Below, in pieces: positions 6,226 through 52,998 of a DNA stretch of 64,000 nucleotides. The stretch is from Saccharopolyspora gloriosae. Lineage in GTDB: Bacteria; Actinomycetota; Actinomycetes; Mycobacteriales; Pseudonocardiaceae. The position numbers and the translations under genes are program-made. The notes under the pieces are model-generated. The model did no database searches, had not been told where the DNA came from, and worked only from the letters and a program-made list of their open reading frames with translations. Each line of letters begins with the position of its first letter. Position 1 is the stretch's first letter. The stretch is taken from NCBI RefSeq assembly GCF_014203325.1, contig NZ_JACHIV010000001.1:4589501-4653500 (forward strand), given 5' to 3'.

Positions 6226-6392
6226 GCGGCCGAAGGCCGTGCCTGTATTCGCGAAGCGAATAGCCCACGTCCAAAAGCCGACCACCGGCGGGTTCTCAGT
6301 CGGTCTCTCGCGAGGACAGCTTTTTCCCTCGTGGCGGAGCCACTAGGGAAAAAGATCCCGCAGCGAGAGACCGACTGAGGTTCCGCTACCCG
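6226..6392 (+). repeat. Palindromic intergenic element, copy A
   Basis: One of five related elements. The long stem pairs CTCAGTCGGTCTCTCGC (6295-6311) perfectly with 6363-6379. Inside it a second hairpin pairs 6320-6329 with 6345-6354, capped by GTGGC-GGA-GCCAC (6331-6343). Upstream are two small hairpins with GAA triloops (6227-6239 and 6247-6261). It sits between the convergent GNAT and P450 genes, where it may also end transcription in both directions. The rest of the gap 6086-6428 holds no gene that I can see. Confidence 0.85.
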
Positions 6393-6428
6393 ACCCCCAA
6401 AGCAGAACGAGCCCCCCTCAAAACCACC

Positions 6429-7616
6429 TCACCAAGTGACAGGGAGTTCTAGGAGGCCTCCGGAGAGCTGGCCGCTTTCCAGCTTCAGGTCCTCCGGAGC
6501 GACCGCCACCTGCAGGTCGGGGATCTTCCGGAACAGCGTGCTGAACGCGGTCTGCAGTTCGACCCGCGCGAGCGGGGCGCCGATGCAGTGCCACATGCCG
6601 TGCCCGAAGGTCAGGTGCGGGTTGGGCGCGCGGGTCACGTCGAACGTGTCCGGGGCGTCGAAGGCGCGGGTGTCGAAGTTCGACAGGGTGAAGTCGAGCA
6701 GCACCAGCTCGCCCGCCTTGATCGTGACGTCGCCGATCTCGACGTCCCCGGCGGCCCAGCGCGGCAGCATGGAGCTGCCCGCCTTGGCCGCGCGCAGCAC
6801 CTCCTCCACCGCGATGGCCATGGTGCCCGCGTCGCGCATCGCGAGGTCCCGCTTGTCGGGGTTGTTCGCGAGCACCAGCACGCCCACGTCGATGTGGCTG
6901 ATCACGCTGTCCAGGCCGGCGAACAGCACGCCCGCCGCGAGGGTGCCGATGCGCTCGTCCTCGACGCCCGCCTCGCACAGCCGCGAGATCACGTCGTCGC
7001 CGGGCTGCCCGCGCTTGCGGCCCACCAGCGCGGAGATGTACGCGAACAGCTCCTCGGCGCCCTTCTCCGCGGAGACCGGGTCGTGCAGCACCGCCATCCG
7101 GCCCATCAGCTGCAGGATCATCATGCGGTCCTCGACGGGGATGCCGATCAGCTCGTAGAGGACCTGCAGGGCGAAGGGCTGCGAGAAGTCGTTGTGCAGG
7201 TCCGCGGGCGGTCCCTTGTCCACCAGCGCCTGCACCATGTCCTCGGCCAGCGCCTCGACCTTGTGGCGCAGCCGGGCGAGCCTGCGCGCGGAGAAGCTCG
7301 GCGTCAGCAGCGCGCGCATCGACTTGTGCAGCCGGGTCGCCTCGTCGGGGTCCGAGTCGGTGATCAGCAGGTTGAAGAACGGGGTGTCGACGTAGCGCGG
7401 CGCGGACGGCGGATCCGGGTGCGACCGGTTGATCCGCTCGTCCTTGAGCAGCTCCTTGACCTCTTCGTGCCGGGTGACCAGCCAGGCTTCGTCGCCCGCC
7501 GGGGTGATCACCTTGCAGATGGGCGCCTGCTCCTGGAGATTCCGCAGCATCTCCGGAGGCCGGAGCATGGCGGACGGGCCGGTGCCCAGCTTCGGCAGGT
7601 CGAGCGATTGACTCAT
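6429..7616 (-). CDS. Cytochrome P450, macrolactone-tailoring (PimD/NysL-like)
   Basis: A 395-residue P450. The I-helix reads AGLDS, with Ser237 in place of the usual threonine. From memory, the polyene epoxidase PimD also has serine at this place. ExxR is EEVLR (271-275), and the haem loop FGHGMWHC ends at Cys344. ATG at 7616 has GGAGGAA seven bases upstream, and the gene follows the thioesterase PKS gene by 85 bases in the same direction. PimD-type enzymes epoxidise the C4-C5 alkene of pimaricin, and NysL/AmphL hydroxylate a polyol carbon. Here the PKS domains predict no C4-C5 alkene, so hydroxylation of the polyol side is the better guess. Confidence 0.88.
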   Translation of the reverse strand: MSQSLDLPKLGTGPSAMLRPPEMLRNLQEQAPICKVITPAGDEAWLVTRHEEVKELLKDERINRSHPDPPSAPRYVDTPFFNLLITDSDPDEATRLHKSMRALLTPSFSARRLARLRHKVEALAEDMVQALVDKGPPADLHNDFSQPFALQVLYELIGIPVEDRMMILQLMGRMAVLHDPVSAEKGAEELFAYISALVGRKRGQPGDDVISRLCEAGVEDERIGTLAAGVLFAGLDSVISHIDVGVLVLANNPDKRDLAMRDAGTMAIAVEEVLRAAKAGSSMLPRWAAGDVEIGDVTIKAGELVLLDFTLSNFDTRAFDAPDTFDVTRAPNPHLTFGHGMWHCIGAPLARVELQTAFSTLFRKIPDLQVAVAPEDLKLESGQLSGGLLELPVTW

Positions 7617-7701
7617 GGGCGATTCCTCCGCGGTGTGGGTGGATTCCGGTCGGACGAACGGGACCGGGCCGCCGCGCCGGACGCGGCGACCCGGCGAGCG
7701 G

Positions 7702-10700
7702 TCAGGTGCTCGCGGGCACGAGGCTCGCCAGCCAGTCGTGCATGACCTGCGCGGTGAGCTCGGAGTGCTCCTTGGCCAGCGACAGGTGGTCGGCCTCGAT
7801 GGTGCGCACCGCGTCGGTGTCGATGGCGGGCGGCGCTTTCGTGCCGCGGCTGCCGGGAACGGGGACCGAGCAGCGCACCAGCAGGGTCGGCGCGGTGGTC
7901 ACCGGGGCGTCGGTGATCGCGGCGACCTTGTTGTACCAGTGCACCATCGCCGACAGCCGGGAGCTGTTGAGGTTCACCGACGGGGAGTCGATGTCGGCGA
8001 GGTAGTAGCTCGCGACCTCGTCGTAGTCGATGTCGTCGTTGCCGTCGTAGCGCAGGCTCAGCGTGTCCAGCAGGATCACCGCGTCCGGCCGCACGCCCCA
8101 GGTGTCCTCCAGCACGCCCGCCGCGTGGTAGGCGATGGTGCCGCCGGTGGAGTGCCCGACCAGCACGAACGGGTCGCCGTCGCTGCCGTGCAGCGCGCTC
8201 TCGGCGACCGAGCGGATGGCGGCCGTGCCGTGCTCGGGCAGGTCCTCCCCCGATTCGAAGCCGACGAGCGGCAGCGCGGACACGTGCCGGGTGCCGCGCA
8301 GGTGCGCGGCGATGCGGGCGTACTGGTGCACGCCGCCGGTGGCGCCGGGCGAGCTCACGCAGATCAGCCGGGGGTCGGTGGGGCCGTCGGCCAGCGTCAC
8401 CGGTTCGGGCAGTTCGGCGAGCTCGGCGGGGGTCTCGAAGGTCGGGCGGGTCGCGGCGACCGCGCCGAGCATCCGCATGGACTCCTTCTGCTTGCCGGAG
8501 TGCACGCCGGTGAGGAACAGGTTCACCAGGGTGTCGTGCGGGTTGCCCTGCGACCGGCCGCCGGCGACACCGATGCGGTCGCCCAGTTCGCCGTCGATCC
8601 GGTCGGCGAGCGCGGCCGGGGTCTTCGTGTCGAACACGACCGATGCCGCAAGCCGCAGGTCGAGCTCTTCGCCGAGCCGGTTGCGCAGTTCCACCGCGAT
8701 CAGCGAGTCGAAGCCCAGTTCCAGGAAGTCCCGTTCCGCGTCGACGGCGGACGCGTCGCGGTGGCCGAGCACGGCGGCGGCGTGCTCGATGACGAGTCCG
8801 GTGAGCAGCTTGCGGCGGTCGGCCGCGTCGGCGTCGGCGAGCCGGTCGCGCAGCGTTCCGCCGGATCGCGCCGCGGCGGCGGTGCGGCGGGCGGCGGGGA
8901 TCAACCCGCGCAGCACGGAGGGCACGTGGCCCTGGGCCCGCATCCCGGAGGCCTTCGCGCGGATCGGCACCACCAGCGCCTCGTCGCGGGCGAGGGCGGC
9001 GTCGAACAGCGCCAGTCCCTGTTCCAGCGACAGCGGCGGCAACCCGGAGTTCGCCATCCGCTCCAGTTCGGCTTCGGTGAGCTCGCCGGTCATGCCGGTC
9101 GTCGGCGCCCACGGACCCCACGCCAGCGACTGCGCGGGCAGACCCGCGCCGCGGCGGTGCTGGGCCAGGGCGTCGAGGAAGGCGTTGGCCGCGGCGTAGT
9201 TGCCCTGGCCGGGTCCGCCCATCACACCGGAAACCGAGGAGTACAGCAGGAACGCGGTGAGCCCGAGGTCGCGGGTGGCTTCGTGCAGGCGCCAGGCGGC
9301 GTCCACCTTGGGCCGCAGCACGCCGTCCAGGCGTTGCGGGGTGAGCGAGCCGATCGCCCCGTCGTCGAGCGCCCCGGCGGTGTGCACGACGGCCGTGAGC
9401 GGGTGCTGCACCGGGATCTCGGCGAGCAGGCCGTCCAGCGCGGCGCCGTCGGCGGCGTCGCAGGCCGCGATCCGCACGTCGGCGCCGTGCGCGGTGAGTT
9501 CCGCGCGCAGCTCCACCGCTCCCGGCGCCTGCGGTCCGCGGCGGCTCGCCAGCACCAGGTGCCGGGTGCCGTGCTCGGCGACCAGGTGCCGGGCCAGTTC
9601 GGCGCCGAGCCCACCGGTGCCGCCGGTGATGAGCACGGTCCCTTCGGGGTCCCAGCTCGCGGTGTCCACGGCTCCCTCGCCGTCGAGCGGCAGCAGCCGC
9701 GCCACGCGGATCTCCCGCTGCCGCACGGCGATCTGCTGCTCGTCGGCGTCGAGCAGTCCGGGCAGCACCGCCGCGGAGGTGAAGGCGTCGTCGAGGTCGA
9801 CGAGCAGCAACCGGCCGGGGTCCTCGGCCTGCGCGGAGCGCACCAGGCCCCACACGGCCGCCGCGGCCACGTCGGCGGGCGTCTCGCCGTCCACCGCGAC
9901 CGCGCCTCGGGTCACGAAGACCAGGTGGGATCGGGCGAAGCGCTGGTCGGACTGCCATTCCTGGAGCACGGCCAGCGCCCGGTGGGTGAGGTCGTGCACG
10001 GCCTGCGGGCCGGCGGCGGCGTCACCGGTGACGGGGATGAGGAACACGTCGGGCACCGCGCTGCCGCTCGCCGTGCTCGCCAGGGTCTCGCCGTAGCCGA
10101 CGACGGCTTCGTCGGCGCGGTGCAGCGCGTAGGCGAGGTCGAACTCGTCGCCGCCGATGATCGCCCAGCGCTTGCCGCCGACGGGCTCCGGCGCGGGCCC
10201 GGGGACCCAGCGCAGCCCGAACAGGGAGTCCTGGCCGGATTCGCGGGCCACCGGCGCCTGTCCGCTGGTGTCGAGGGTCAGGGATTCCACCACCAGCACG
10301 GGGTTTCCGCGGCCGTCGACGGCGACGACCTCGATGCCCGGACCGTCCGCGTGGCGGCTCGCGCGCAGGCTCAGCGCGGTGGCTCCGGTGGCGTGCAGGG
10401 ACATCCCGTCCCAGCGGACCGCCCGCGCGGAGTCCGAAGTGGACTCGACGTGCGCGGCGGCGCGCACGACCGCGTCCAGCAGCGCCGGGTGCAGGTCGTG
10501 GCCGGGGCCGGTGTCGTCCGCGGGCAACGCCACCTCGGCGAAGACCTCCCCGGCGTGGCGCCACACCGCGAACGACGCGTCGTCGGCCAGCTGCTCGGCA
10601 CCGCCGGGCACTTCGCCGGAGAAGTCGATCTCGACCGGGTCGGCGGTGAGCACGCCGGTGGCGTGCTCGGTCCAGCCATGCTCGGAGTCCGCCGGGCGGG

Positions 10701-13700
10701 CGTGCACGGTCAGCGCGCGCCGCCCCTCTTCGTCGGCCTCCCCGATCTTGACCTGCACGGCGACCGGTTCACCCGCGGGCAGCACGAGACCGGTGCCGAC
10801 GGTCAGCGTCTCGACCCGCGCGCACCCGGCCTCGTCCGCGGCCCGCAGCGCGAGCTCGGCGAACACCGACTCCGGCACGGCCCGCCCGGTGGGCAGCCAC
10901 GGTTGCGCGCTCGCCGACAGGCTCCCGGTCAGCACGACCGCGCCCGTGTCGGCCAGTCCCATCGCCGCGCCGAGCACCGGGTGGTGCACCGAGCGCAGCC
11001 CGAGCCCGGTGGCGTCCACGGCACCGGCGGCGGCCTTCGGCCAGAACCGCTCGTGCTGGAACGCGTAGGTGGGCAGGTCGACGCGCCGCGCGCCGGTCCC
11101 GGCGAGCAGCTCGGACCAGTCCACCCGCAGGCCGCGGACGTGCAACCGGCCGAGCGCGGTCACCAACGCCGCCTCCTCCGGGCGGTCCTTGCGCAGCGCC
11201 GGAGCCGCCACGGCGTTGTCGGGCAGCGATTCCTGGGCCATCGCGCAGAGCGTGCCGTCCGGGCCCAGCTCCAGGAAGGTCTTCGCGCCCTCGGCGGCGA
11301 GCGCGCGGACGCCGTCGGCGAACCGCACCGCCTCCCGCACGTGGCGCACCCAGTACTCCGGCGAGCCGAGCTCCTCGGAGCGCGCGCGCTCCCCGGTCAG
11401 GTTCGACACGATCGGGATCGCGGCGGGGCCGAAGGACAGCTCCCGCACCACGGCGCGGAACTCGTCGAGCATCGGGTCCATCAGCGGCGAGTGGAACGCG
11501 TGGCTGACGCCGAGCGGTTTGGTCTTGCGGCCGTCGGCCGCCAGCCGCTCCGCGACGGCCCGCACGCCCGCCTCGTCACCGGAGACGACGACCGAGCGCG
11601 GCCCGTTGATCGCGGCGATGGACGTGGTGCCGTTGAGCAGCGGCACGACCTCGGCCTCGGTGGCCTGGACCGCGGTCATCGCGCCGCCCGCGGGCAACGC
11701 GCTCATCAGGCGGGCGCGGGCGGCGACGAGCTTCGCGGCGTCCGCGAGCGACAGCACTCCGGAGACGTGCGCCGCCGCGATCTCGCCGATGGAGTGGCCG
11801 CCGAGCAGGTCCGCCGTGACGCCGAGGGATTCGACGAGCCGGTACAGCGCGACCTCGACGGCGAACAGCGCGGGCTGGGTGTTGCCGGTGTCCTCCAGCG
11901 CGGCCTCGTCCGCGCCCCAGATCACGTCGCGCAGCGAGCCGTCCCGGTGCCGGTCGAGTTCGGCGAGCGCCGCGTCGAACGCCGCCGCGAACACCGGGAA
12001 CCGGGCGTGCAGCTCGCGGCCCATGCCGAGCCGCTGCGAACCCTGGCCGGAGAACAGCACCGCGAGCCTGCCCGGTTCGGCGCCGACCGCGCCGCGCGCG
12101 ACCTCGTCGACACCGGACTCGGTGGCCAACAGCACCGCGCGGTGCTCGAACGTGGACCGGCCGGTCACCAGCGAGTGCGCCACGTCGGCGGCGGCGGTCT
12201 CGGGGTGCCCGGCGTGGAAGGCGGTGATCCGGTCCAGCTGCGCGGCCAGCGCCTGCGGGGTCCGGCCGGAAACGGGCCACGGCACCGCGGCCGGGCGAAT
12301 CCGCTGCTCGGGCTCGGCGGTCTCGGGCTGGGCGGATTCGGGCTGGGCGGGTTCCGGAGCCTGCTCCAAGATCACGTGCGCGTTGGTGCCGCTGATGCCG
12401 AAGGAGGAGACACCGGCCCGGCGGGGATGGTTCGCCTCGGGCCACGCCGTGCTCGCGGTCGCCAGCTCGACGGACCCCGTGTCCCAGTCCACGTGCTCGG
12501 ACGGGCTGCTCACGTGCAGCGTCGGCGGCAGCGCGCCGTGGCGCATCGCCTGCACCACCTTGATCACGCCGGCGGCGCCGGCGGCGGCCTGGGTGTGGCC
12601 GAGGTTCGACTTCACCGACCCCAGCAGCAGCGGCCGGTCCCGGTCGCGGCCGTAGGTCGCCAGCAGCGCCTGCGCCTCGATCGGGTCGCCCAGCTTCGTG
12701 CCCGTCCCGTGCGCCTCCACCACGTCGACGTCCGAAGTGGACAGTCCGGCACCGGCGAGCGCCTGCCGGATGACGCGCTGCTGCGCCGGGCCGTTCGGCG
12801 CGGTCAGGCCGTTCGACGCGCCGTCCTGGTTCACCGCGCTGCCCCGCAGCACCGCCAGCACCTCGTGGCCGTGGCGCTGCGCGTCGGAGAGCTTCTCCAC
12901 CACGAGCAGCCCGACGCCCTCGGACCACGCGGTGCCGTCGGCGTCGGACGAGAACGCCTTGCAGCGCCCGTCGGGGGCGAGCCCGCCCTGCCTGCTGAAC
13001 GAGGAGAAGTTCGCCGACGTCGTCATCACCGTGACGCCCCCGGCCAGGGCCATCGAGCACTCGCCGGACCGCAGCGCCTGCGCGGCCAGGTGCAGCGCCA
13101 CCAACGACGACGAGCACGCGGTGTCCACGGTCAGCGACGGGCCTTCCAGCCCGAGTGCGAACGACAACCTGCCGGAGAGCACGCTCGCCGCCATCCCCGT
13201 GGAGGCGTGGCCTTCGAGGTCCTCGCTGGAAGCGAGCATCAGGTGGATGTAGTCCTGGCCGGTGGTGCCGACGAACACGCCGGTCCGGCTGCCGCGCAAC
13301 GCTTTCGGGTCGATCCCGGCGCGTTCCAGCGCCTCCCAGGACACCTCCAGCGCCTGGCGCTGCTGCGGGTCCATCGCGACGGCCTCGCGCGGGGAGATGT
13401 CGAAGAAGCCGGGGTCGAAATCGGCCGCGCCGGGCAGGAATCCGCCTTCGGCGGTGGCGCTGCGCCCGTCGCCGAGCGCGTCGAGGTCCCAGCCGCGGTC
13501 GGCCGGGAAGCCGGTGATCGCGTCCTCGCCCGCCGAGAGCAGGTCCCAGAGCCGCTCCGGCGAATCGGCGCCGGGGAACCGGCAGGCCATGCCGACGATC
13601 GCCACCGGCTCGTGCTTGCCGGACTCCGCGTCCTGGAGCCGTTGCCGCGTCTCGTGCAGATCCGCGGTGACCCACTTCAGGTAGTCGACGAGTGTGCTTT

Positions 13701-13710: not shown

Positions 13711-13806
13711 CGCCGGTCCTTCTTTCGATCGAGTTCCTGTTGTGGGTGGCAGGGCGGGCAGGTGCTCCCCGGAAGGCGGTGCGAGAGGTTTCCGAGCAGT
13801 TCCTCG

Positions 13807-13960
13807 TCAGCGGCGAAGCCGCTGAGCAGCGACCACCCGAGCACAACGACCACCGGCGGGTTCTCAGCGGCTTCCTCCCGAGGACAGCGATTTCGTGGTG
13901 TAGGGAGCTACATGAGAAATCGATCCCGCAGCGAGGAAGCCGCTGAGGTTCCGCCACCCG
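13807..13960 (+). repeat. Palindromic intergenic element, copy B
   Basis: The small hairpin with GAA triloop is at 13807-13825. The long stem pairs 13863-13877 (CTCAGCGGCTTCCTC) with its complement within 13931-13947. The inner hairpin is CGATTTC/GAAATCG capped by TGTAG-GGAG-CTACA, a different subtype from copies A, C and E. It lies between two codirectional PKS genes, in a 281-base gap with nothing else recognisable. Confidence 0.85.
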
Positions 13961-13991
13961 GACACCTGCGCAAACCATTCCGTGAGAGCTC

Positions 13992-16900
13992 CTAAGCCTG
14001 GGTTCGTCTGCCGAGTTCGTTGTCGATGAAGGTGAGCAGGTCATCGGCGGTGGCGTCCTGGATGCGTTCCTCCACGGCGTGCTCGTCGGCGTGGGCGGCT
14101 CCGTCGCCGTAGCGCTCCAGCAGGCCGCGCAGCCGGACGGTGAGCTCGTCGCGGACTTCGGCGGCGGTCTCCTCGTCGGCGAGGACGTGCTCGATCCGGT
14201 CCAGTTCGGCGAGCGGGGACGCCCCGGGGCCGTCCGTGCCGCCGAAGTCCTCGGCCAGCAGGCGGGCCACCGCCAGCGGCGTCGGGTGGTCGAAGATCAG
14301 CGTCGAGGGAAGCCGCACGCCGGTCGCCCCGGTCAGCCGGTTGCGCAGTTCGACCGCGGTCAGCGAGTCGAAGCCGATCTGGCGGAATTCGCGCTCCGCG
14401 CCGATCGCCTCGGCCGAGCCGTGGCCGAGCACCGTCGCGGAGGCGTCCCGGACCAGCTGCACCAGGGTCTGCTCGCGTTCCGCGCCGCCCATCGCGGCGA
14501 GCTTGTCGGCGAGCCCGGCCTGGTCCGCTCCGGTGCCGCCACCGGCGGCGGTGCGCCGCGCCGAGCGGACCAGGCCGCGCAGCATCGCGGGCACCTCGGC
14601 CTGCGCGCGAGCGGCCCCGGAGCCCATGCCCAGCGGCACGACGAGGGGTTCGTCGGCGCCGATCGCGGTGTCGAACAGGGCGAGGCCGCGCTCGATCGGC
14701 AGCGGCGGCATCCCGTTGTCGCCGATGCGGCGCAGGTCCCGGTCGTCGAGCCCGGCGGTCATGCCGACGCCCTGCTCCCACGCTCCCCACGCCAGCGACA
14801 CCGCGGGCAGCCCGCGGGACCGGCGGTGCCGGGCGAGCGCGTCGAGGAACACGTTGCCCGCCGCGTAGTTGGCCTGCCCCGCGCTGCCCAGCACCCCGGA
14901 GACCGAGGAGTAGACGGCGAACGCGGCCAGGTCCAGGTTGGCGGTGAGCTCGTGCAGGTTCCAGGCGCCGTCCACCTTGGGCCGCAGCACGGCGTCCAGC
15001 CGTTCCGGGGTGAGCGAGCCGACGACGCCGTCGTCGAGGGTGCCCGCGGTGTGCACCACGGCCGTGAGCGGGCGCGGCGCCGAGTCCAGCAGCGCGCGGG
15101 CGGCGGCGCGGTCGGCGACGTCGCAGGCCGCGATGGTGACCTCGGCGCCGCGCGCGGTGAGTTCGGCGCGCAGCTCGGCCGCGCCGGGCGCGTCGGCGCC
15201 GCGCCTGCTGGCGAGCAGCAGGTGCCGGGCGCGGCCGTCGGCGACCAGGTGGCGGGCCAGTTCGGCGCCGAGCCCGCCGGTGCCGCCGGTGATGAGCACC
15301 GTGCCGTCCGGGTCCCACCGCCGGGGCATCGTGAGGACGATCTTGCCGATGTGCCGGGCGAGGCTCATGTGCCGGAACGCCTCGGGCGCCCGCCGCACGT
15401 CCCAGGACCGCACCGGCAGCGGGTGCAGCGCACCGGCCGCGAACAGCGCGGTCAGCTCTCCCAGCATCTCCTGGATGCGGTCCGGGTCGACGAGTCCGAG
15501 GTCGAAGGAGCGGTAGTCGACGCCCGCCACGTCGTCGCGCACGTCGGTCTTGCCCATCTCGATGAACCGCCCGCCCCGGGGCAGCAGCCGCAGCGAGGCG
15601 TCGACGAACTCGCCGGACAGCGCGTTGAGCACCACGTCGATGCCGCCGTCGCCCGCGACCGCCGCGAACTCGCGCTCGAAGTCGGTGGTGCGGGAGGAGG
15701 CGATGTGGTCGTCGGCCACGCCGAGCGAGCGCAGGGTGTCCTGCTTGCCCTCGCCGGCGGTGGCGAACACCTCGGCGCCGAGGTGCCGGGCGAGCTGGAT
15801 CGCGGCCATGCCGACACCACCGGCACCGGCGTGCACCAGCACCTTCTCGCCGGGCCGCACGGCCGCCAGGTCGAGGAGACCGTGGTAGGCGGTGAGGAAC
15901 ACCAGCGGCACCGAGGCCGCCGCGTCCCAGGACCAGCCCTCCGGAACGCGGGTGAGGAACCGCTCGTCGACCGTCCCCTGTGGACCGAATCCGCCGAACA
16001 GCATGCCCATCACCCGGTCGCCGGGCCGCAGATCGACCGCCTCGGGTCCGGCCTCGACGACCACCCCGGCGGCTTCCGAGCCGAACGGGCCCGCCTCGCC
16101 GGGGTACATGCCGAGCGCGTTGAGCACGTCGCGGAAGTTCACCCCGGCCGCCTCGATCCGCACCCGCACGTCCCGGCCGGTCAGCGGCTCGGCGGCCTGC
16201 GGGAACGGGGTCAGCGCGAGGTCGTCCAGGCTGCCCTTGCGCACGCTGTCGAGGTGCCACGGCACGCCCGCGGGCGGCACCAGGGACTCGGCGGTGGCCA
16301 GCTGCGCCAGCCGCGCCACGCGCGGCGCGCCGTCGCGCACGAGCGCCTGCGGCTCGTCCTGCTCGAACAGCCCGGGGGCCAGCGCGAGCGCTTCGGCCGG
16401 GTCCGAGTCGACGTCGAGCAGCAGGAACCGGCCGGGGTTCTCGGATTGCGCGGACCGCACCAGGCCCCACGCGGAGTGCGCCGCCAGGTCGGTGCCGTCG
16501 ACCGCGCCGCGCGTGACGAACACCAGCCGCGAGGCCGCGAAGCGGTCCTCGGCGAGCCACCGCTGCACCAGCTCCAGCACCCGCCGGTTCAGCGCGCGCA
16601 CCGCGCCGGGCACGTCGTCCCCGCCGCCGCTCAGCGGCACGGCCACGAACTCCGGCACCGGCTCGGGCAGCTCGTCGGCGGAGTCCGCGACCGCGCCGAC
16701 GCCCAGGCCGAACGGGTCCGGGCCCAGCACCGCCCACTGCCGCGCGGCGGGCTCGACCTGGTGGGCGACCCATTCGACGTGGAACAGCGAGTTCAGCTCG
16801 TCCGCGCCGGCGGGTGCGGCCGGGGCCGGTCCCGCTTCGGCCAGCACCAACGAGTCGACCGACAGCACCGGGATGCCCTGCGGATCGGCGGCGACGAGCT

Positions 16901-19900
16901 CGACGGAATCCTTGCCGTTCTTGGTGATCCGCACCCGCAGCGCCGATCCGCCGGAGGCGTGCAGCGAGGCACCGCTCCAGGAGAACGGCAGCAGGCCGCG
17001 CCCGTCCCCTTCGGAGACGGCGAACACGGTGGCGTGCAGCACCGAGTCCAGCAGCGCGGGGTGCAGTCCGTAGGACTCGGCGTCGCGCACCTGCTGCGGC
17101 AGCCGGACCTCCGCGAAGTACTCGTCGTCGCGGCGCCACACCGCGCGCAGCCCGCGGAACACCGGGCCGTAGGTGAGTCCCGTGGCGGCGTAGTCGTCGT
17201 AGAGGCTCTCGATGTCCACTTCGGACGATCCGGCGGGCGGCCAGACGGCGGCGTCGAAGTCCAGGACGCGCTCGGGTTCGGCCAGCGTGCCCGCGGCGTG
17301 CTGGGTCCACGGCGCGGCCGGGTCGTCGGCGGGGCCGGGCTGGTCGGGGCGCCCGGGCTGGTCGAGGCGCCCGGGCTGGTCGAGGCGGGAGTACAGGCGC
17401 AGCGCGCGGCGCCCGGAGTCGTCGGCGGCGTCGACCCGCAGCTGCACCTGAACTGCACCGTCGGCGGGCAGCACCAGCGGCGCGGCCAGCGTCAGCTCCT
17501 CCACCTGGTCGCAGCCGACCTGGTCGGCGGCGCGCACGGCGAGTTCGAGGAACCCGGTGCCGGGGAAGAACACCTGGCCGCTGACCACGTGGTCGGCCAG
17601 CCAGGCGTGCGTGGCCACGGACAACCTGCTGGTGAACAGCACCCCGGCGCCGTCGGCGAGTTCCACGGAGGCGCCCAGCAGCGGGTGCTCGGCCCCGGTG
17701 AGCCCGAGGCCCGTCGCGTCCCCGGCCTGCTGCGCCGTCTCCGGCCAGAAGCGCTCGTGCTGGAAGGCGTAGGTCGGCAGGTCGATCCGGCGGGCGTCGG
17801 TGGCGGCGAAGAACGCGGCCCAGTCGACCTTGATCCCGGCGGTGTGCAGCCGGGTGAGCGCGGTGGTGGCGGCGGTGCGGTCGTCCCGGTCGCGGCGCAG
17901 CATCGGGATCACCGGCGTGCCCGGCTCCAGCGAGTCCTGCGCCATCGAGCACAGCGCGCTGTCGGGCCCCAGTTCCAGGAACACCGAGGCGCCGTCGGCG
18001 GCGAGCGCGCGCACCCCGTCGGCGAACCGCACCGGTTCCCGCACGTGGCGCACCCAGTACTCCGGCGCGGCCAGCTCCTCGGCGGCGGCCAGGCGCCCGG
18101 TCAGGTTCGACACCAGCGGAAGCTGCGGCCTGCCGAACGCGGATTTCCGCACCACCGCGCGGAAATCGTCGAGCATCGGGTCCATCAGCGGCGAGTGGAA
18201 GGCGTGGCTCACGGCGAGCCGGGTGGTCTTGCGGCCCTGCTCGGCCAGCCACCGGGAGATCTCGTCGACCTCGTCCTCCGCACCGGAGATCACCAGCGAG
18301 CCGGGCGCGTTCACGGCGGCCACCGCGACCCGCTCGGTCAGCAGCGGCGCGACCTCGGCTTCGGTGGCGCGCACCGCGGCCATCGCCCCGCCCGCGGGCA
18401 GCGCCTGCATCAGGCGTCCCCTGGCGGCGACGAGCGCGGCGGCGTCCGGCAGCGAGAGCACTCCCGCGACGTGCGCGGCGGTGATCTCGCCGACGGAGTG
18501 GCCCGCGACGAATCCGGGGGTGACGCCCCAGGATTCGAGCAGCCGGTACAGCGCGACCTCGACGGCGAACAGCGCGGGCTGGGTGGTGCCGGTCTGGTCC
18601 AGCAGGGCCGCGTCGGCGCTGCCGGGTTCGGCGAACAGCAGCTCGCGCAGCGGGCGGTCCAGGTGCGGGTCCAGTTCGGCGAGCACCGCGTCCAGCGCTT
18701 CGGCGAACGCCGGGAACGCGGCGGCCAGCTCACGTCCGGCACCGGCGCGCTGCGCGCCCTGGCCGGAGAACAGCACGCCGAGCTTCGCGGGGCGCTCCAC
18801 CGTGTGGCGCACCAGTCCCGGCGCGTCGCCGTCGGCGACCCACCCGGCCAGCGCGTCGCGCAGCCCGCCCCGGTCCGCGCCGACGGCGGCCAGCCGGTGC
18901 TCGAAGGCGGCGCGGGAGGTGGCCAGCGAGAACGCCACGTCGTCCGGGCGGGCGGCGGGGTCGGCGTCGACGTGGGCGAGCAGCCCGACGACCTGGTCCC
19001 GCAGGGCCTGCTCGGTGCGGCCGGTGAGGATCCACGGCACCGCACCGGATTCCGGCCCGCGCTCGGCGGTCTCCTCGGCGGGGGCCTGTTCGAGGATGGT
19101 GTGCGCGTTGGTGCCGCTCACGCCGAACGAGGACACCGCGGCGCGGCGCGGGCGGCCGGTCTCGGGCCAGGCCTCAGTCTCGGCCAGCAGTGAGACCGCT
19201 CCGGAGGACCAGTCCACGTGCGAGGACGGCGGGTCGCAGTACAAGCTGCGGGGCAGCACGCCGTGGCGCATCGCCTGCACCATCTTGATCACGCCCGCGA
19301 CCCCGGCGGCGGCCTGCGTGTGGCCGAGGTTGGACTTGACGGAGCCGAGCCGCAGCGGCTCCTCCCGGTCCTTGCCGTAGGTCGCCAGCAGGCTGCTCGC
19401 CTCGATCGGGTCGCCCAGCGAGGTCCCGGTGCCGTGCGCCTCCACCACGTCGATGTCCGAAGTGGACAGATCAGCGCTGGACAGCGCCTGGCGGATCACC
19501 CGCTGCTGCGCGCGCCCGCTGGGCGCGGTGAACCCGTTGGAGGCGCCGTCGGAGTTCACCGCGGAGCCGCGCACCACCGCGAGCACCGGGTGCCCGTTGC
19601 GCCGCGCGTCGGAGAGCCGCTCCAGCACGAGCACGCCGACGCCCTCGGACCAGCCGGTGCCGTCGGCGGCGTCGGAGAACGGCTTGCACCGGCCGTCGGT
19701 GGCGAGCCCGCCCTGCCTGCTGAACTCCAGCAGCGAACCGGGCGTGCACATCACGTTGACGCCCCCGGCCAGCGCGAGCGAGCACTCCCCCGCGCGAAGC
19801 GCGTGCGCCGCCTGGTGCAGCGCCACCAGCGAGGACGAGCACGCCGTGTCCACGGTGACCGCGGGCCCTTCCAGGCCCAGCTCGTAGGACAGCCGCCCGG

Positions 19901-20480
19901 AGGTGGCGCTGGCGGCGATGCCGGTGCCCACGTTGCCGTCGGCGTCCGACAGCGACCGCACCAGCAGGTAGGCGTAGTCCTGCCCGTTGGTGCCGACGAA
20001 CACGCCGGTGCGGCTGCCGCGCAGCCCGGTGGCGTCGATCCCGGCGCGTTCGATCGCCTCCCAGGACACCTCCAGCAGCAACCGCTGCTGCGGGTCCATG
20101 GACATGGCCTCGCGCGGCGAGATCCCGAAGAACCCGGGGTCGAACTCCGCCAGCCCGTCGAGGAACCCGCCGCGCCGGGACACGGCGTTGCCGCGTTCGT
20201 CGACGCCCGCGTCCCGCAGCGCGCCCAGGTCCCAGCCGCGGTCGGTGGGGAACTCGCCGATCGCGTCGCCGCCCGCGGCGACCAGGTCCCACAGGTCCTC
20301 CGGCGAGGAGACCCCACCGGGGAACCGGCAGCCCATCGACACGATCGCCACCGGCTCGGAGCGCTGCTCGGTGAGCCGCTGGTTCTGCTTGCGCAGCCGC
20401 TCCGTCTCCTTCATCGACGCGCGGAGTGCCTTCTCGACCTGCGCCTGCCGGTCCGCCGGGTCACGCTCCCCAGAGGTCAT
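13992..20480 (-). CDS. Type I PKS, single fully reducing module (KS-AT-DH-ER-KR-ACP; PimS3 position)
   Basis: 2162 residues from the ATG at 20480, which has GGAG six bases upstream; ATG 20483 and TTG 20486 are also in frame. Residue numbers here count from TTG 20486. Domains: docking coiled coil (1-42), KS (45-465, Cys216), AT (565-860, Ser664; HAFH at 761-764, malonyl), DH (930-1190; [10 protein letters not shown] from His966, and HPALLDS with Asp1147), ER (1415-1720; NADPH loop HAGAGGVGM at 1552-1560), KR (1728-1945; Tyr1874, Asn1878; LDD, B-type), ACP (2005-2075, Ser2041) and a C-terminal docking region. All reductive domains look active, predicting a saturated C4-C5. Pimaricin's equivalent module (PimS3) makes an alkene, so the ER is a notable difference. 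The gene starts 11 bases after the large PKS stop. Confidence 0.95.
17337..17390 (-). repeat. Three tandem 18-bp units in the DH-domain linker
   Basis: Units at 17337-17354, 17355-17372 and 17373-17390 differ from GGGCTGGTCGAGGCGCCC by at most a few bases. They encode a repeated (L/P)DQPGR segment in a surface-type linker of the fully reducing module, so the repeat keeps frame. It looks like a recent slippage expansion. Confidence 0.8.
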
Positions 20481-20491
20481 CATCAACTCCG

Positions 20492-48238
<27,747 letters not shown>

Positions 48239-48530
48239 GTCCACCCAACCCATCTCAGGCGGCCCCCTCAGGGGCTCCCACGGCCGAATCCGGCCGGCCC
48301 ATTGCCCGGCACATCTGCGGAGTTCCAGGAACCGTGCGCTCGCCCGGTGCCGCGCCACGGCACCGGGCGTCCCGCTCAACCCGGCCGCGCACCACCGGAC
48401 GCGCCCGCGGTCCGCCGCACGGCGACCGGACGCGCGCACACTTCCGCCCACCAAGACATGCGCCCAGTCTCACCACTGCCAGGCAGGAAAATCCTTAGGA
48501 GTGCTCTCCTCGTGACCTGCGTAGGGGGCG
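48239..48530. other. Leader region of the large PKS gene
   Basis: No gene is visible here. It contains the start region of the large PKS gene (minus strand) and a short GC palindrome near 48260. I find no convincing -35/-10 pair or PimM-type box. Any promoter for the 42-kb PKS-P450 transcript must lie here or further up beyond copy C. Confidence 0.4.
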
Positions 48531-48683
48531 GGTGGCGGAACCTCAGCGTTCTTCTCGCTGCGGGATCTTTTTCCCAAGTGGCTCCGCCACGAGGGAAAAA
48601 GCCGTCCTCGCGAAAAGAACGCTGAGAACCCGCGGGTCGTCCGGTTGCTCAAGCTGGTCACTGCTCAGCGGCTTCGCCGCTGA
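48531..48683 (-). repeat. Palindromic intergenic element, copy C (reverse orientation)
   Basis: The only copy on the minus strand. The long stem pairs 48542-48558 (CTCAGCGTTCTTCTCGC) with 48610-48626, with one G-T type mismatch. The inner hairpin is CTTTTTCCC/GGGAAAAAG capped by GTGGC-TCC-GCCAC, the same subtype as copies A and E. The small hairpin is at 48665-48683. It lies between the GDP-mannose dehydratase and the large PKS gene, both on the minus strand. Confidence 0.85.
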
Positions 48684-48768
48684 CAGGACAAAGACCACAA
48701 GATCCGCGCGGGCTCCTGAGTCTCGGGCCCGGGCAACGCTTTCATCGCCTCGCAGGGCAGGAACGCAG

Positions 48769-48810
48769 ACCGGCCCCCGGTCGCGTCGGGACGCGAGTTC
48801 GGGGGCCGGT
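48769..48810 (-). terminator. Hairpin after the GDP-mannose dehydratase gene
   Basis: An 11-bp perfect stem (ACCGGCCCCCG at 48769-48779 with its complement at 48800-48810) encloses a second stem (TCGCG...CGCGA). It begins 49 bases beyond the dehydratase stop on the minus strand. There is no T-tract, as is common in actinomycetes. Confidence 0.6.
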
Positions 48811-48858
48811 TGTCGGCGGTGGTGCGGGGGAAGTTCTTCCGGTGGTGGGGCCGGGCGG

Positions 48859-49890: not shown

Positions 49891-50030
49891 GTGCTTCCCC
49901 TTCCACCACCTGACAACGAACCACCCGTGCCGACCGCGTGGACGGCCGCGGGAAGGCGCGCGGCGGCGCGCCGGGTACCAGCACAGGTCGAAAGGCAACC
50001 GCCGGGAACGCCCGGCTCGGCCCGGTCCTG

Positions 50031-50060
50031 ACGCTGGCAGCCGATCACGCGAAGTGTCAA
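50031..50060 (-). promoter_or_regulatory. Putative promoter of the GDP-mannose dehydratase gene
   Basis: On the minus strand TTGACA (50055-50060) and CAGCGT (50031-50036) are spaced by 18 bp. The -35 matches consensus; the -10 is weak. The leader would be about 130 bases. A PimM-box-like sequence lies 17 bp further upstream. Confidence 0.4.
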
Positions 50061-50076
50061 AGAAATCAAGCACACC

Positions 50077-50092
50077 CTAGGGATTCGCTCAG
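50077..50092. promoter_or_regulatory. Candidate PimM-type binding box
   Basis: CTAGGGATTCGCTCAG matches 13 of 16 positions of the PimM consensus CTVGGGAWWTCCCBAG as I remember it; all mismatches fall in the right half. It lies upstream of the dehydratase -35, a sensible place for activation by the PAS-LuxR protein at 60029-60715. The degenerate right half keeps confidence low. Confidence 0.35.
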
Positions 50093-50130
50093 TACTTCGT
50101 TTCCGGTTCTCTAGGGTGGCCTGCGCAGCG

Positions 50131-50371
50131 GGTCGGGTAGCGGAACCTCAGCACTTCGTTTCTCGACGTCGGCGAGGGAGGTCTTTGATCACCGTCTTGT
50201 CAGCGGCGAAGCCGCTGAGCAGTGACCGGCTTGAGCACGACGACCACCGGCGGGTTCTCAGCGGTCTTCTCGCGAGGACAGCGATTTCGCTGTGTACGGC
50301 ATACCTGAGAAATCGCGGCCACACCAGGAAAGCGGGCAGCGAGAAGGCCGCTGAGGTTCCGCTACCCGACC
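50131..50371 (+). repeat. Palindromic intergenic element, copy D, with 22-bp terminal inverted repeats
   Basis: Bases 50131-50152 are the exact reverse complement of 50350-50371, framing a 241-bp unit. Inside are the small GAA-loop hairpin (50200-50218), the long stem (50257-50273 with 50339-50355, one G-T pair) and an inner GCGATTTC/GAAATCGC hairpin of the copy-B subtype. It lies in the divergent gap between the dehydratase and carboxyltransferase genes. The rest of 49891-50463 holds the promoter candidates but no gene. Confidence 0.85.
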
Positions 50372-50463
50372 CGCTGATCAAGCCGCCAGAAGGTGGCCGT
50401 TGCGCGGACTAGGAATTCTCTTGGTCGTGGATTGGTGTACTGGGGTGTGGCAGGAGGTGTGCG

Positions 50464-51894
50464 ATGACTTCGTCCGTCACGGAACCAGCCGGGCTCGACC
50501 AGGCTCCGGCCGATCCGCGCGACCCGGTCCACCGGATGTCGCGGCTGCTCGACGAGGGCAGCCTGGAGGTGACCTGGCGCGAGGGCGGCGTGGCGGTCGT
50601 CGTCGGGCAGGGCCGGATCGGCGGCGCCGAGGTCGTCGTCTACTGCACCGACGCCACCCGCAAGGGCGGTGCGATCGGCGTCGACGAGTGCCCGCCGATC
50701 GTCGAGGCCATCGACAGCGCGGTGCGGCGTCGCCTCCCGGTGATCGGGATTTGGCACTCCGGCGGCGCGAAGCTCGCCGAGGGCGTCGCCGCGATGGACG
50801 GCATCGGGCTGATGTTCGCCGCGATGGTGCGGGCCTCCGGCGTGGTTCCGCAGCTGTCGGTGGTGCTCGGACCGGCCGCGGGCGGTGCCGCCTACGGGCC
50901 TGCGCTGACCGACCTCGTGATCATGTCCGAGGGCGGCCGGGTGTTCGTGACCGGACCCGACGTGGTGCGGTCGGTGACCGGCGAGCAGATCGACATGGCC
51001 GGGCTCGGCGGCCCGGAGGCGCACGGGGCGAAGTCCGGCGTCGCGCACCTCACCACCGCCTCCGACGAGGAGGCGTTCCGGCAGGCCCGCCGGGTCACCG
51101 CCTTGCTGAGCTCCCCCGGCTCGTTCGACCTGGACGCGCTCGGCGAGCGGCAGGACCTGCGGGCGCTGCTGCCGGAATCGCCCAAGCGCGCCTACGACGT
51201 GCGCCCGCTGGTGCGCGCGATCCTCGACGACGGCCCGGAGGGATTCGCGGAGCTGCAACCGAAGTGGGCGCCGAACATGGTCACCGGCCTCGGCAGGCTC
51301 GGCGGCCGGACCATCGGCGTGCTCGCGAACAACCCGCTGCGCAAGGGCGGCTGCCTGGACTCGCTGTCGGCGGAGAAGGCGTCGAGGTTCGTGCGGTTCT
51401 GCGACTCGTTCGGCGTCCCGCTGGTCGTGCTGGTCGACGTGCCCGGCTACCTGCCGGGCGTCGGGCAGGAATGGGGCGGCGTGGTGCGCCGGGGCGCGAA
51501 GCTGCTGCACGCCTTCGCCGAGGCGGTGGTGCCGCGGGTGACGCTGGTGACCCGCAAGTCCTACGGCGGCGCGTACATCGCGATGAACTCCCGTTCGCTG
51601 GGCGCTTCCGCCGTGTTCGCCTGGCCGGACGCGGAGGTCGCGGTGATGAGCGCGAAGGCCGCCGTCGGCGTGCTGCACCGCAAGCGGCTCGCCGCCGCCA
51701 CCGACGACGACCGCCCGGCGCTGGAGCAGGCGCTGATCGCCGAGCACGAACGCGTCGCGGGCGGCGTCGGGCGCGCGATGAGCATCGGCGTCGTCGACGA
51801 GCTCATCGACCCCGCCGACACCCGCCACCGCCTCGCCGACGCCCTCGCCACCACCCCGCCCGGACGCGGCGCGCACGGCAACATCCCGCTGTGA
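50464..51894 (+). CDS. Acyl-CoA carboxylase carboxyltransferase (beta) subunit
   Basis: A 476-residue carboxyltransferase, slightly shorter than typical PccB/AccD5 (about 530). Two crotonase-like halves are visible: the N half with PAAGGAAYGPAL and the C half with GYLPGVGQE and YGGAYIAMNSRSLGAS. It would transfer carboxyl from biotin to propionyl-CoA or another acyl-CoA, so it may supply the methylmalonyl unit of module 3. Ser382 in LGASAVFAWP stands where propionyl-CoA carboxylases have the specificity-determining Asp (LGAD...), so the substrate may differ. No biotin-carrier alpha subunit is in the window; it must be borrowed from elsewhere. The site AGGAGGTG precedes the ATG. The type II thioesterase follows by 49 bases. 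Confidence 0.9.
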   Translation: MTSSVTEPAGLDQAPADPRDPVHRMSRLLDEGSLEVTWREGGVAVVVGQGRIGGAEVVVYCTDATRKGGAIGVDECPPIVEAIDSAVRRRLPVIGIWHSGGAKLAEGVAAMDGIGLMFAAMVRASGVVPQLSVVLGPAAGGAAYGPALTDLVIMSEGGRVFVTGPDVVRSVTGEQIDMAGLGGPEAHGAKSGVAHLTTASDEEAFRQARRVTALLSSPGSFDLDALGERQDLRALLPESPKRAYDVRPLVRAILDDGPEGFAELQPKWAPNMVTGLGRLGGRTIGVLANNPLRKGGCLDSLSAEKASRFVRFCDSFGVPLVVLVDVPGYLPGVGQEWGGVVRRGAKLLHAFAEAVVPRVTLVTRKSYGGAYIAMNSRSLGASAVFAWPDAEVAVMSAKAAVGVLHRKRLAAATDDDRPALEQALIAEHERVAGGVGRAMSIGVVDELIDPADTRHRLADALATTPPGRGAHGNIPL

Positions 51895-51943
51895 CCAGGC
51901 CGATCCGAGCCGCCGCAGCAGACCCCTTCGCAGAGGAGACCCC

Positions 51944-52711
51944 GTGACCGATCTGGATCCCGGCAAGTGGTTGCGCCGCTACCACCCGGCACCCGGCGCC
52001 GAGGTGCGCCTGGTGTGCTTCCCGCACGCGGGCGGCTCGGCGAGCTTCTACCGACCGGTCGCGACCGCGCACTCCCCCGCCGCCGACGTCGTGGTGCTGC
52101 AGTACCCGGGCAGGCAGGACCGGCACCGGGAGCCGCTTATCACGAACATCGACGAGTACGCCGAGGCGATCACGGCGGTGCTGGCCGCCGAACCGGAGCT
52201 GCCGACGGTGTTCTTCGGCCACAGCATGGGCGCGCTGCTCGGCTTCGAGGTGGCGCACCGGCTGGAGCACGGCGCCGGCGCACCGCCGCGCGCGCTGGTC
52301 GCGTCCGGCCGCCGCGCGCCGGGCACCGCCCGCGACGAGCGGGTGCACCTGCTCGACGACGACGGGCTGCTAGCCGACGTGCGCACCCTCAACGGCGCCG
52401 CGGCGGCGCTGGAGGACGAGGAGATCGTGCGCATGTCGCTGCCCGCGATCCGCAACGACTACCGCGCGGTGGAGACCTACCCGCCGCGCCGGGACCGGGT
52501 GGTGGACTGCCCGATCGCCGTGCTCATCGGCGACGAGGACCCGAAGTCCACAGTGGACGAATCGCTGCGCTGGAAGGAGCACACCACCGGCGCGTTCCGC
52601 CTGCGCACCTTCCGCGGCGGCCACTTCTACCTGGTCCAGCAGGCCGCAGCCGTCAACGCCGAACTCACCGAGGAGCTCAGCACCCTGCACCGAACACCCT
52701 CGGCACACTGA
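51944..52711 (+). CDS. Type II thioesterase (PimI/NysE type)
   Basis: A 255-residue alpha/beta hydrolase. Nucleophile Ser94 lies in GHSMGA; the likely acid is Asp197 or Asp199 in IGDEDP, and the histidine is His227 in RGGHFYL. These enzymes remove aberrant acyl groups from PKS carrier proteins and are usual in polyene clusters. The start is GTG at 51944 with AGAGGAG nearby. It is probably cotranscribed with the carboxyltransferase. The gene is followed by copy E of the palindromic element, between it and a convergent regulator. Confidence 0.93.
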   Translation: MTDLDPGKWLRRYHPAPGAEVRLVCFPHAGGSASFYRPVATAHSPAADVVVLQYPGRQDRHREPLITNIDEYAEAITAVLAAEPELPTVFFGHSMGALLGFEVAHRLEHGAGAPPRALVASGRRAPGTARDERVHLLDDDGLLADVRTLNGAAAALEDEEIVRMSLPAIRNDYRAVETYPPRRDRVVDCPIAVLIGDEDPKSTVDESLRWKEHTTGAFRLRTFRGGHFYLVQQAAAVNAELTEELSTLHRTPSAH

Positions 52712-52811
52712 CCCGCGACCCGGCAGCCGGCCGCACGACCGTGATCAAACCGATGGGTCGCCCGGCCGAAACGATCCTTAGAACCGCCACTAGAAGGATC
52801 TTTTGATCTTG

Positions 52812-52960
52812 TCAGTGGCGGAGCCGCTGAGCAGTGACCAGCTTGAGCAAGTCGACCACCGGCGGGTTCTCAGCGGTTTCCTCGCGAGGACGGCTTTTTT
52901 CCTCGTGGCGGAGCCACTTGGAAAAAAGATCCCGCAGCGAGGAAACCGCTGAGGTTCCGC
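52812..52960 (+). repeat. Palindromic intergenic element, copy E
   Basis: The small hairpin is at 52812-52830 (TCAGTGGC-GGA-GCCGCTGA, one G-T pair). The long stem pairs CTCAGCGGTTTCCTCGC (52869-52885) perfectly with 52937-52953. The inner hairpin is CTTTTTTCC/GGAAAAAAG capped by GTGGC-GGA-GCCAC, the subtype of copies A and C. It lies between the convergent thioesterase and LAL genes and could terminate both. Confidence 0.85.
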
Positions 52961-52998
52961 TGAACGACCACTTACGCAGGTCACTCCGAAAGGACCGT

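Follow-up and report, generated by a model that had tools for sequence, protein, structure and literature searches.

Introduction

Integron attC sites are imperfect palindromes with conserved ends, unpaired bases and a variable stem, and they are recognised as a folded strand. In REPINs, conserved ends are combined with a spacer in which pairing is the only constraint and compensatory changes are common, according to the available part of the source (PMC3116915, Bertels and Rainey 2011). For GTAG-tagged palindromic repeats, the available part of another source describes termini that often provide neighbouring genes with a stop codon (PMC3733652). In this study, we analyze a family of palindromes from Saccharopolyspora gloriosae, which we consider to be probably a REPIN/MITE-like, non-autonomous mobile palindrome of ~160-240 bp, whose mobiliser was not found.

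Elements of the window and spread of the family

The window, i.e. the whole stretch of 64,000 nucleotides under analysis, contains the five elements reported in a first-pass annotation, all of them at the positions given there. A composite motif (GCGGGTTCTCAG, 0 to 20 nucleotides, then CGAGGACRGC) is found exactly 5 times in it, the mean of 100 shuffles being 0.00. Element 1 (6226-6400, + strand) lies in a convergent gap and is made of a 5' part of type B with hairpins at 6226-6239 and 6246-6262, a core (6288-6386, +) formed by the invariant scaffold and the variable arm TCGGTCTC / GAGACCGA, and a 3' tail. The other four have a 5' part of type A, with a triloop hairpin. Element 2 (13800-13991, +, outer limits approximate) has its hairpin at 13808-13824 and its core, with arm CGGCTTCC, at 13856-13954 (+); its 3' tail reaches a called gene (13992-20486, -). 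Element 3 (48531-48690, -, outer limits approximate) has its core at 48535-48633 (-), with arm CGTTCTTT and one T.G, and its hairpin at 48666-48682. Element 4 (50194-50387, +), located in a divergent gap, has an enlarged apical part (hairpin 50201-50217, core 50250-50362). The annotated stretch 50131-50371 does contain this element, but it is composite: a fragment of a further copy, reduced to the 3' arm (50140-50152, -), precedes the element at ~50194-50387, on the strand opposite to it and in a long inverted repeat with it. Element 5 (52800-52998, +, outer limits approximate) has its hairpin at 52813-52829 and its core at 52862-52960 (+), where the arm CGGTTTCC / GGAAACCG pairs perfectly; here too the 3' tail reaches a called gene (52999-55656, -). 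Over the 8-bp variable part, the arms TCGGTCTC, CGGCTTCC, CGTTCTTT, CGGTCTTC and CGGTTTCC show either full pairing or a single T.G, and the core at 13856 has an additional C.C mismatch deeper inside.

The family is not limited to these five copies, but comprises hundreds. About 320-370 copies are present in the 6.83 Mb genome of S. gloriosae: sampling of 56 evenly spaced 20-kb stretches gave 52 genuine copies among 61 raw matches, hence an estimate of ~317, and the motif, with at most 1 mismatch, was counted 372 times, versus 4 for the reversed pattern (strand counts were not drawn from this motif listing, which misses many minus-strand matches). The further copies in related genomes that had been suggested as a check were found as well. 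Within the same taxonomic family, Pseudonocardiaceae, a model of the core detected the elements in 38 of the 150 genomes sampled, belonging to 13 of 46 genera, whereas it detected them in 0 of 24 genomes from other families. Core-model matches per genome are lower bounds (68, 150 and 27 candidates were scored), and both strands of one palindrome may be listed. Searched for in plasmids and phages, the element 1 core gave no match. No Rfam family was found on the elements at the gathering score, and a permissive search with elements 1 and 5 returned only matches below gathering scores.

Fold and covariation

The core consists of an invariant scaffold around an 8-bp hypervariable stem with covarying arms. 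Starting from 104 raw matches, 94 copies were typed, 46 were chosen for diversity, and 45 were aligned (L049:1493-1580 was excluded). In these 45 aligned copies, double-changed cells numbered 151, against 44.7 upon shuffling (0/500), so that arm changes are paired beyond chance, the second check suggested by the first-pass annotation. As RNA, the + strand of two of the five elements folds with z = -8.4 and -7.2, and the minus strand of element 1 with z = -6.7.

Covariation alone does not prove selection of the fold, because arms can be swapped jointly within a repeat family, and quasi-palindrome correction can perfect stems. It might even be a mere mutational by-product of quasi-palindrome template switching and copy-to-copy gene conversion, without any selection of the fold. 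We find this decidedly unlikely, even though alleles are common to many copies and, from one relative to another, are different at a shared site, and mismatches within the clade of the window itself (G000-G003 and NFXS83) show no preference for G.T over A.C (11:9). In species outside this clade, however, G.T mismatches on the + strand exceed A.C by 56:7 (p=1e-10). Both ratios are for stems having at most 2 mismatches; if every stem is counted, they become 21:16 in the own clade and 66:12 in the others, and with position 16 excluded the ratio is 27:12 over all distinct stems. This predominance of G.T over A.C on one strand, outside the own clade, favours the fold of a single strand. The initial proposal that the folded form itself is selected is therefore backed by the G.T excess of the other species, but not by the own clade. 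Moreover, correction should erase opposed non-pairing bases, whereas those at positions 6-94 and, in the internal loop, at 25-75, 26-74, 27-73, 29-71 and 32-68 are kept in 76/76 copies of 99 nt, though in a wider set T6.T94 is found in 251/256 copies.

Outside the core, copy-specific pairing of the outer arms was not above chance overall, with an own mean of 26.3 versus 24.8 for cross-paired controls (p=0.18). An outer closing stem formed by these arms was accordingly rejected.

Empty sites, putative target duplications and search for a mobiliser

The elements are mobile, and their turnover is fast. The regions compared contain 31 own-genome elements, of which those with both flanks aligned in a close relative were counted, i.e. 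15 in G001, 22 in G002 and 5 in G003. The core was absent from the aligned site in 10, 13 and 4 of these, respectively, and the gap was also shorter in 9, 11 and 3. At 1 or 2 "absent" sites per genome, a different sequence at least as long was present. Where sites were shared (13 sites, 17 pairwise comparisons), the 8-nt arm differed in every pair, and orientation was opposite in 4/17 pairs. The initial reading of these elements was right about copies and pairing, but it left out the mobility that the empty sites show.

Two classes of outer inverted repeats were found, class I (CCGCCTGTCTTTGATCTTGGC) and class II (GGNCCTTTCAGAATGATC). A 4-nt duplication, CTGA, flanks a class I insert in G001, and an 8-nt duplication, TCTCACAG, flanks a class II insert in G000; both empty alleles are single-copy in G002. 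Another 8-nt repeat, at 5977669, has no empty allele. Class I ends were also found nested within other copies, at CTGA. The elements could be ordinary MITEs of a DDE transposase, defined by these outer repeats and carrying the folded core as cargo. For each class, a putative target duplication beside an empty allele that is single-copy fits this idea, as do the 105 class I ends of the own genome (at most 3 mismatches), internal-deletion derivatives without core, and the agreement of classes at the two ends of a copy (class I, odds ratio 8, p=3e-6). It is nevertheless quite unlikely: by the end search used, 177/252 copies have neither class. The other 75/252 carry a class I or class II end at one side or at both, and 17 of them have a single, matching class at their two sides (15 class I, 2 class II). 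At 2 mismatches or fewer, class I ends number 60 in the own genome, 4 in G002 and none in the core-rich G003, whereas the core itself is found in 13/46 genera. In addition, the outer arms of a copy do not pair with each other above chance overall. For the mobile palindrome favoured here, adverse points are that the duplications are of unequal lengths (4 and 8 nt), that the majority of empty sites are not clean, and that some "absent" sites hold a different sequence.

Several candidate mobilisers were rejected. RAYT/Y1 mobilisation was dismissed because Y1_Tnp (PF01797) had 0 matches in G000-G003 and G018, the element-richest genomes; PF01797 is present in 11/60 relatives, including the carriers G004, G005, G010, G017 and G030. 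Retrotransposition was discarded because a reverse transcriptase (PF00078) is absent from 8/10 element-bearing genomes (G000, G002, G003, G018 and four others), those having it being G001 and G017. Among 100 of the 105 class I sites of G000, no copy that could be autonomous was seen. The sole inward-facing pair 0.5-3 kb apart among these 100 sites spans 818 bp, and corresponds to two separate elements flanking a reading frame in which a Nudix box was noticed by eye. In G002, G005 and G017, the listed class I sites included no inward-facing pair at this spacing. Finally, a split element with a gene in its loop was rejected: 120 half-matches read as degenerate copies, as misses of the threshold or as ends of contigs, and no gene-carrying pair was seen.

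Position relative to genes and to replication

The elements are polar. Their 3' side is directed towards a stop codon for 65/84 copies in the own genome, 66/88 in other species and 36/42 in G018, a genome of an independent genus, and the median distance from core to stop is 38 nt in the own genome and 41 nt in the other species. Divergent gaps are avoided (5/84 copies, versus 202/1140 gene junctions), convergent gaps are enriched (38/84, versus 208/1140), and 1/85 own-genome copies lies within a called gene; the gene calls behind these counts were made within this analysis. For inspection of the sequence between stop and core, any open frame of at least 90 codons ahead of a stop was accepted, so that the 231/289 places obtained include non-gene frames. 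The first-pass annotation had argued that the elements occur in convergent, divergent and codirectional gaps and so are not simply terminators. All three contexts exist, but the argument is misleading, given 5/84 divergent and 38/84 convergent copies, and given that most copies of the family are polar and at a narrow distance from a stop codon.

This narrow distance and the avoidance of divergent gaps, together with a covarying fold and strong RNA folds on both strands, would suit a structured RNA maintained by the host, i.e. a 3'-UTR hairpin acting as terminator or protector of mRNA 3' ends, placed at a fixed distance past stops and propagated by recombination on account of its usefulness. 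We nonetheless hold it unlikely. Wobble favours the strand antisense to the stop-facing gene, which is therefore the wrong strand for its terminator, and a terminator does not need an invariant internal loop. Close relatives often have an empty site, and a strong hairpin was present in only 1/25 empty-allele windows, which were imprecisely centred; on this count, with the same imprecise centring, we rejected the idea, hinted at by site 4775222, that the element takes the place of a native terminator. No T-run after the stem was noticed by eye, in either direction, in the sequences read.

A replication bias is demonstrated for type A and, beyond the own genome, for one genus. In G018, where 127 matches were reduced by hand to 110 places, 92/110 copies obey the replichore rule (p=4e-13), while leading-strand genes amount to 71/124; in convergent gaps, 13/17 copies have the replication orientation. 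In the own genome, this orientation is found for 32/41 type A copies, and for 14/16 of those in convergent gaps (hand count). The bias is weak among the best-scoring 150 copies of the own genome (87/150, p=0.06) and in S. rosea (17/26, p=0.17), and type B has none. On the G018 figures, oriented sites kept for replichore orientation, as chromosome-organising or replication signals KOPS-like in logic, could be envisaged. This is very improbable, with no bias in type B, a marginal one in the best 150 copies, and site occupancy that varies between close relatives.

Discussion

We return to the REPIN/MITE-like mobile palindrome, for which fold, covariation, copy number, empty sites and polarity are demonstrated here. 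In the mechanism that we propose, a protein would recognise a near-invariant scaffold, namely the stem feet, the GAGGACRGC/GATCCCGCA internal loop and the flanking CACC and GCA boxes, plus the folded shape of one strand. Pairing would be the only demand on the 8-bp stem between these invariant parts, whose sequence would therefore drift with compensatory changes. Copies settle with polarity, the 3' end usually shortly past a stop codon and one replication orientation preferred, which suggests that insertion is tied to replication or to DNA in single-stranded form. Against this reading stand the search for a mobilising enzyme, which found none, the own clade without a G.T excess, and a replication bias that is weak in some sets and absent in type B. 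A further adverse point is that, under a lagging-strand-template model, it is the minus strand that would lie there, not the wobble-favoured strand. Insertions in genes and promoters would presumably be purged by selection. We infer this recognition by a protein and transposition as a single strand, as well as any benign role at 3' ends. The complete scenario, of a fold-recognised mobile element with a free 8-bp stem in an invariant scaffold, moved by a non-RAYT enzyme with fixed polarity past leading-strand stop codons, and probably into replication-exposed single-stranded DNA, is put forward tentatively, as one possibility.

Saccharopolyspora and its relatives produce erythromycin, spinosyns and other drugs. 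In several species, the repeats number from tens to hundreds and, lying at the ends of genes, could alter mRNA 3' ends and promote rearrangement. The family also provides a natural experiment, in which hundreds of arm pairs can serve to separate selection on a DNA fold from selection on an RNA fold, and it raises the question of which enzyme moves a REPIN-like element in RAYT-free genomes.

Compared with known systems, the elements resemble intrinsic terminators in having a strong hairpin shortly past a stop codon, but they have no T-run by eye, are large and near-invariant, show an antisense wobble preference and are often missing in close relatives. With integron attC sites, they share the palindrome layout; in contrast, the R''/R' core-site motif was not seen by eye, there is no cassette array, and copies are single and dispersed. 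Internal deletions and no evident coding capacity are as in MITEs, and so may be the putative inverted terminal repeats and target duplications, except that class I/II ends are on a minority of copies, as searched, and that a folded core is common to copies with different ends. GTAG/CGTC-tagged palindromic repeats are likewise close to coding regions, but are units of 20-40 bp in the part of PMC3733652 available, unlike the ~160-240 bp elements; that text makes no mention of Actinobacteria, Streptomyces, Saccharopolyspora or Amycolatopsis.

As regards REPINs, the elements have high copy number, intergenic location, conserved ends and a pairing-only middle with compensatory changes, but neither a Y1 (RAYT) transposase, the gene being missing from the richest genomes, nor an invariant foot tetranucleotide (GTAG or CGTC): their tag varies and is at one foot only (GTAG 84/256, GTGG 118/256), and CGTC was near the foot in 0/256. 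From what the available part of PMC3116915 describes, RAYT-mobilised REP sequences and REPINs are similar in their hundreds of intergenic copies, with two conserved parts and a spacer keeping length and pairing, in their mobility, and in hairpins predicted in ssDNA or mRNA. Relative to that same description, the elements stand apart by a much larger core with an invariant internal loop, by a 5' hairpin of their own, and by their polarity with respect to stop codons and replication.

Copy number and anatomy of the repeat family

The five palindromic elements that the first-pass annotation had reported in the window do exist: each sequence was read, and the composite motif matches five times in the window and never in shuffles. 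The observation holds and has good support; the family is larger than first reported, further copies being numerous. When no more than one mismatch is allowed, the motif GGCGGGTTCTCAG matches 372 times in the Saccharopolyspora gloriosae genome, a single contig (C1) of 6,825,909 bp with the window at 4589501-4653500, versus 4 times for the reversed control, and the family is also found in relatives with R1, a covariance model of the core (the folded part of about 99 nt). From the 52 genuine copies among 61 raw matches in 56 evenly spaced 20-kb stretches of this genome, we estimate about 317 copies per genome. The repeat family is new, its general kind is known, and it shows a striking double polarity; no mobiliser was found.

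On the + strand, an element comprises, in order, a 5' module, a spacer carrying GCA and CACC boxes, the core, and a tail in which similar boxes, CACC and GCA, recur. The 5' module is either the triloop hairpin GTCAGCGGCGAAGCCGCTGAGCAG (type A) or a hairpin array whose end is GTATGTGCGAAGCACATAGCCCACG or closely resembles it (type B); among 94 typed S. gloriosae copies, 53 were of type A, 36 of type B and 5 of other kinds. The core reads GCGGGTTCTCAG, 8 variable nucleotides, TCGCGAGGACRGC, an apical hairpin, GATCCCGCAGCGA, 8 variable nucleotides and CTGAGGTTCCGC. The scaffold is close to invariant among the 76 copies whose length is exactly 99 nt, and the internal loop is almost unchanged; at the foot, G5.T95 and T6.T94 are kept in all 76 and T7.G93 in 75. 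Positions 13-20 of these copies show several pair types, yet remain Watson-Crick paired in 66-75 of the 76.

The arrays of mini-hairpins of about 20 nt (GCGGCCGAAGGCCGTGCCT, GCGGCGAAGCCGTGCCT, GGACGAGCGAAGCGAAGTCTGCCT) that precede type B cores (loci L001-L030 and others; positions 6226-6262 in the window) resemble a separate repeat family. Elsewhere, positions 50115-50152 and 50350-50387 are the two arms of an inverted repeat of 38 nt (89%), to which element 4 and a fragment of another copy contribute. The window also has six Rfam ASpks matches (12610-12678, 24173-24241, 28379-28447, 32900-32968, 41996-42064 and 47147-47221), all within long genes resembling modular PKS genes; these matches probably reflect conservation in the coding sequence of repeated domains and not genes for antisense RNA.

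Covariation of the stem and the strand that folds

The two arms of the stem change together, as had been proposed. In 45 diverse copies, compared with shuffles that keep relatedness (copies of one genome being related), 96.4% of cells were paired versus 87.8%, and 151 cells were changed on both sides versus 44.7; none of 500 shuffles reached either value. Of the 500 shuffles, 6 reached the observed number of pairs with double changes and 3 that of further pair types; slid controls gave pairing in 42-51% of cells. Among 256 distinct copies from about 28 genomes, we counted 90 distinct 8-nt arms, and all 8 variable positions were paired in 138 copies. In other genera, even the pair at position 10, which is fixed elsewhere, turns from C-G into G-C (7/256).

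The earlier claim that the folded form itself is selected holds in part. When distinct stems with no more than two mismatches are counted, the + strand in other species has 56 mismatches of the G.T type and 7 of the A.C type (p=1e-10), so that outside the own clade (S. gloriosae, its close relatives G001-G003 and NFXS83) the form that counts seems to be the folded + strand, as RNA or single-stranded DNA. Within the own clade this signal is absent (11 versus 9), which may reflect relaxed constraint or recent replacement of copies by one another. All distinct stems, position 16 left aside, give 27 G.T to 12 A.C.

Mobility and ends

Same-site comparisons were made for S. gloriosae elements in syntenic regions with both flanks aligned. 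The core was present at the same site in 5 of 15 cases in G001, 9 of 22 in G002 and 1 of 5 in G003; in the reverse direction, S. gloriosae had a core for 5 of 6 G001 elements and 9 of 13 G002 elements. At core-less sites the gap was also clearly shorter (9/10, 11/13 and 3/4 for G001, G002 and G003), and one G002 site had a remnant without core. The 13 shared sites yield 17 pairs; no pair has the same stem allele, and 4 are in opposite orientation, indicating that copies were exchanged or sites re-occupied.

Two sites are clean. At the first, where G002 reads GAATG-CTGA-GGAG, the G001 allele carries an insert of about 242 bp that is bordered at either end by CTGA and has class I ends, one of two kinds of outer inverted-repeat ends; at the second, a single TCTCACAG in G002 corresponds in S. 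gloriosae to an insert that has class II ends and is flanked by TCTCACAG at either end. At a third site, TGAGGTTT likewise stands at either end, with no empty allele seen. Nested class I ends also occur inside other copies, at CTGA. With at most two mismatches, class I ends number 60 in S. gloriosae, 4 in G002 and 0 in G003, so that the ends are lineage-specific and the core persists; at most three mismatches give 105 in S. gloriosae.

The S. gloriosae loci L315-L318, L320 and L321 are short derivatives, with about 65-140 bp between class I ends and the core mostly or wholly deleted, some joined via sequence common to hairpin A and the CGGCTTCC stem. In S. rosea, copies L128, L165 and L205 are tandem or nested, the core CTGAG running directly into the TGCCTGTCTTTGA of the next element. 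Locus L317 (contig C1, 1753500-1754600) has two class I elements, of which one is short, and between them a 143-codon frame with a Nudix box recognised by eye; the locus spans about 0.8 kb end to end and is a possible composite.

Placement relative to genes and replication

By home-made gene calls, of 84 S. gloriosae copies with both neighbours, 38 lie in convergent, 41 in codirectional and 5 in divergent gaps, versus 208, 730 and 202 among junctions overall, and 1 further copy, of 85, is inside a called gene. The 3' end points toward a stop codon in 65/84 copies in S. gloriosae, 66/88 in other species and 36/42 in G018, a carrier of an independent genus, and in codirectional gaps in 27/41, 37/53 and 19/23, a few G018 copies possibly being counted in both of the latter sets. 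Core and stop are separated by a median of 38 nt in S. gloriosae and 41 nt in other species, and 29 of 36 stop-facing G018 copies are within 58 nt. By eye, the usual layout in gene direction is the stop, about 10 nt, then the element tail.

Orientation also matches replication, with replichores set from GC skew, in 32 of 41 type A copies of S. gloriosae, type B copies showing no such bias there. In G018, where the skew is noisy, 92 of 110 copies match, genes being on the leading strand in 71 of 124; shifting the replichore border between 2.1 and 2.5 Mb alters the orientation count by no more than 1. The bias is marginal for the best 150 S. gloriosae copies by score (87/150, p=0.06) and in S. 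rosea (17/26, p=0.17). A stretch near the presumed terminus of S. gloriosae (L056, contig C1, 3100001-3120000) has a GC skew of -0.163, far outside neighbouring stretches.

Distribution and literature

R1 found the family in 13 of 60 relatives, in all 6 genomes examined of the genus and in none of 24 genomes from other families. Of the genomes sampled within the same taxonomic family, 38 of 150 were positive, as were 13 of 46 genera, under filters strict enough for weak matches to be lost. Among the matches listed, motif carriers include many Saccharopolyspora, four Amycolatopsis species, Halopolyspora, Actinopolyspora and Sciscionella. No plasmid or phage record matched the core of element 1, and no Rfam family matches the element.

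Open-access titles, abstracts and passages on the motif letters, Saccharopolyspora palindromic intergenic repeats and MITEs, actinobacterial REP and related terms contained no description of the family, which does not prove its absence in print. The available passages on S. erythraea report 190 putative intergenic ncRNAs and make no mention of the present repeat (PMC3610266); those of PMC4666352 deal with other repeats.

Comparison with known repeats

The simplest account is a non-autonomous mobile palindrome, whose putative mobiliser would read scaffold plus fold. This resembles REPINs as described in the passages available, with conserved ends, a middle set by length and pairing, and common compensatory changes (PMC3116915). 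Two defining REPIN features are missing, a Y1 transposase (none in S. gloriosae, G001-G003 or G018) and an invariant tag (none in the element); we therefore describe the element as REPIN-like in its working and do not class it as a REPIN. The tie to stop codons has a parallel in GTAG repeats, which, according to the passages available, supply stop codons to genes (PMC3733652).
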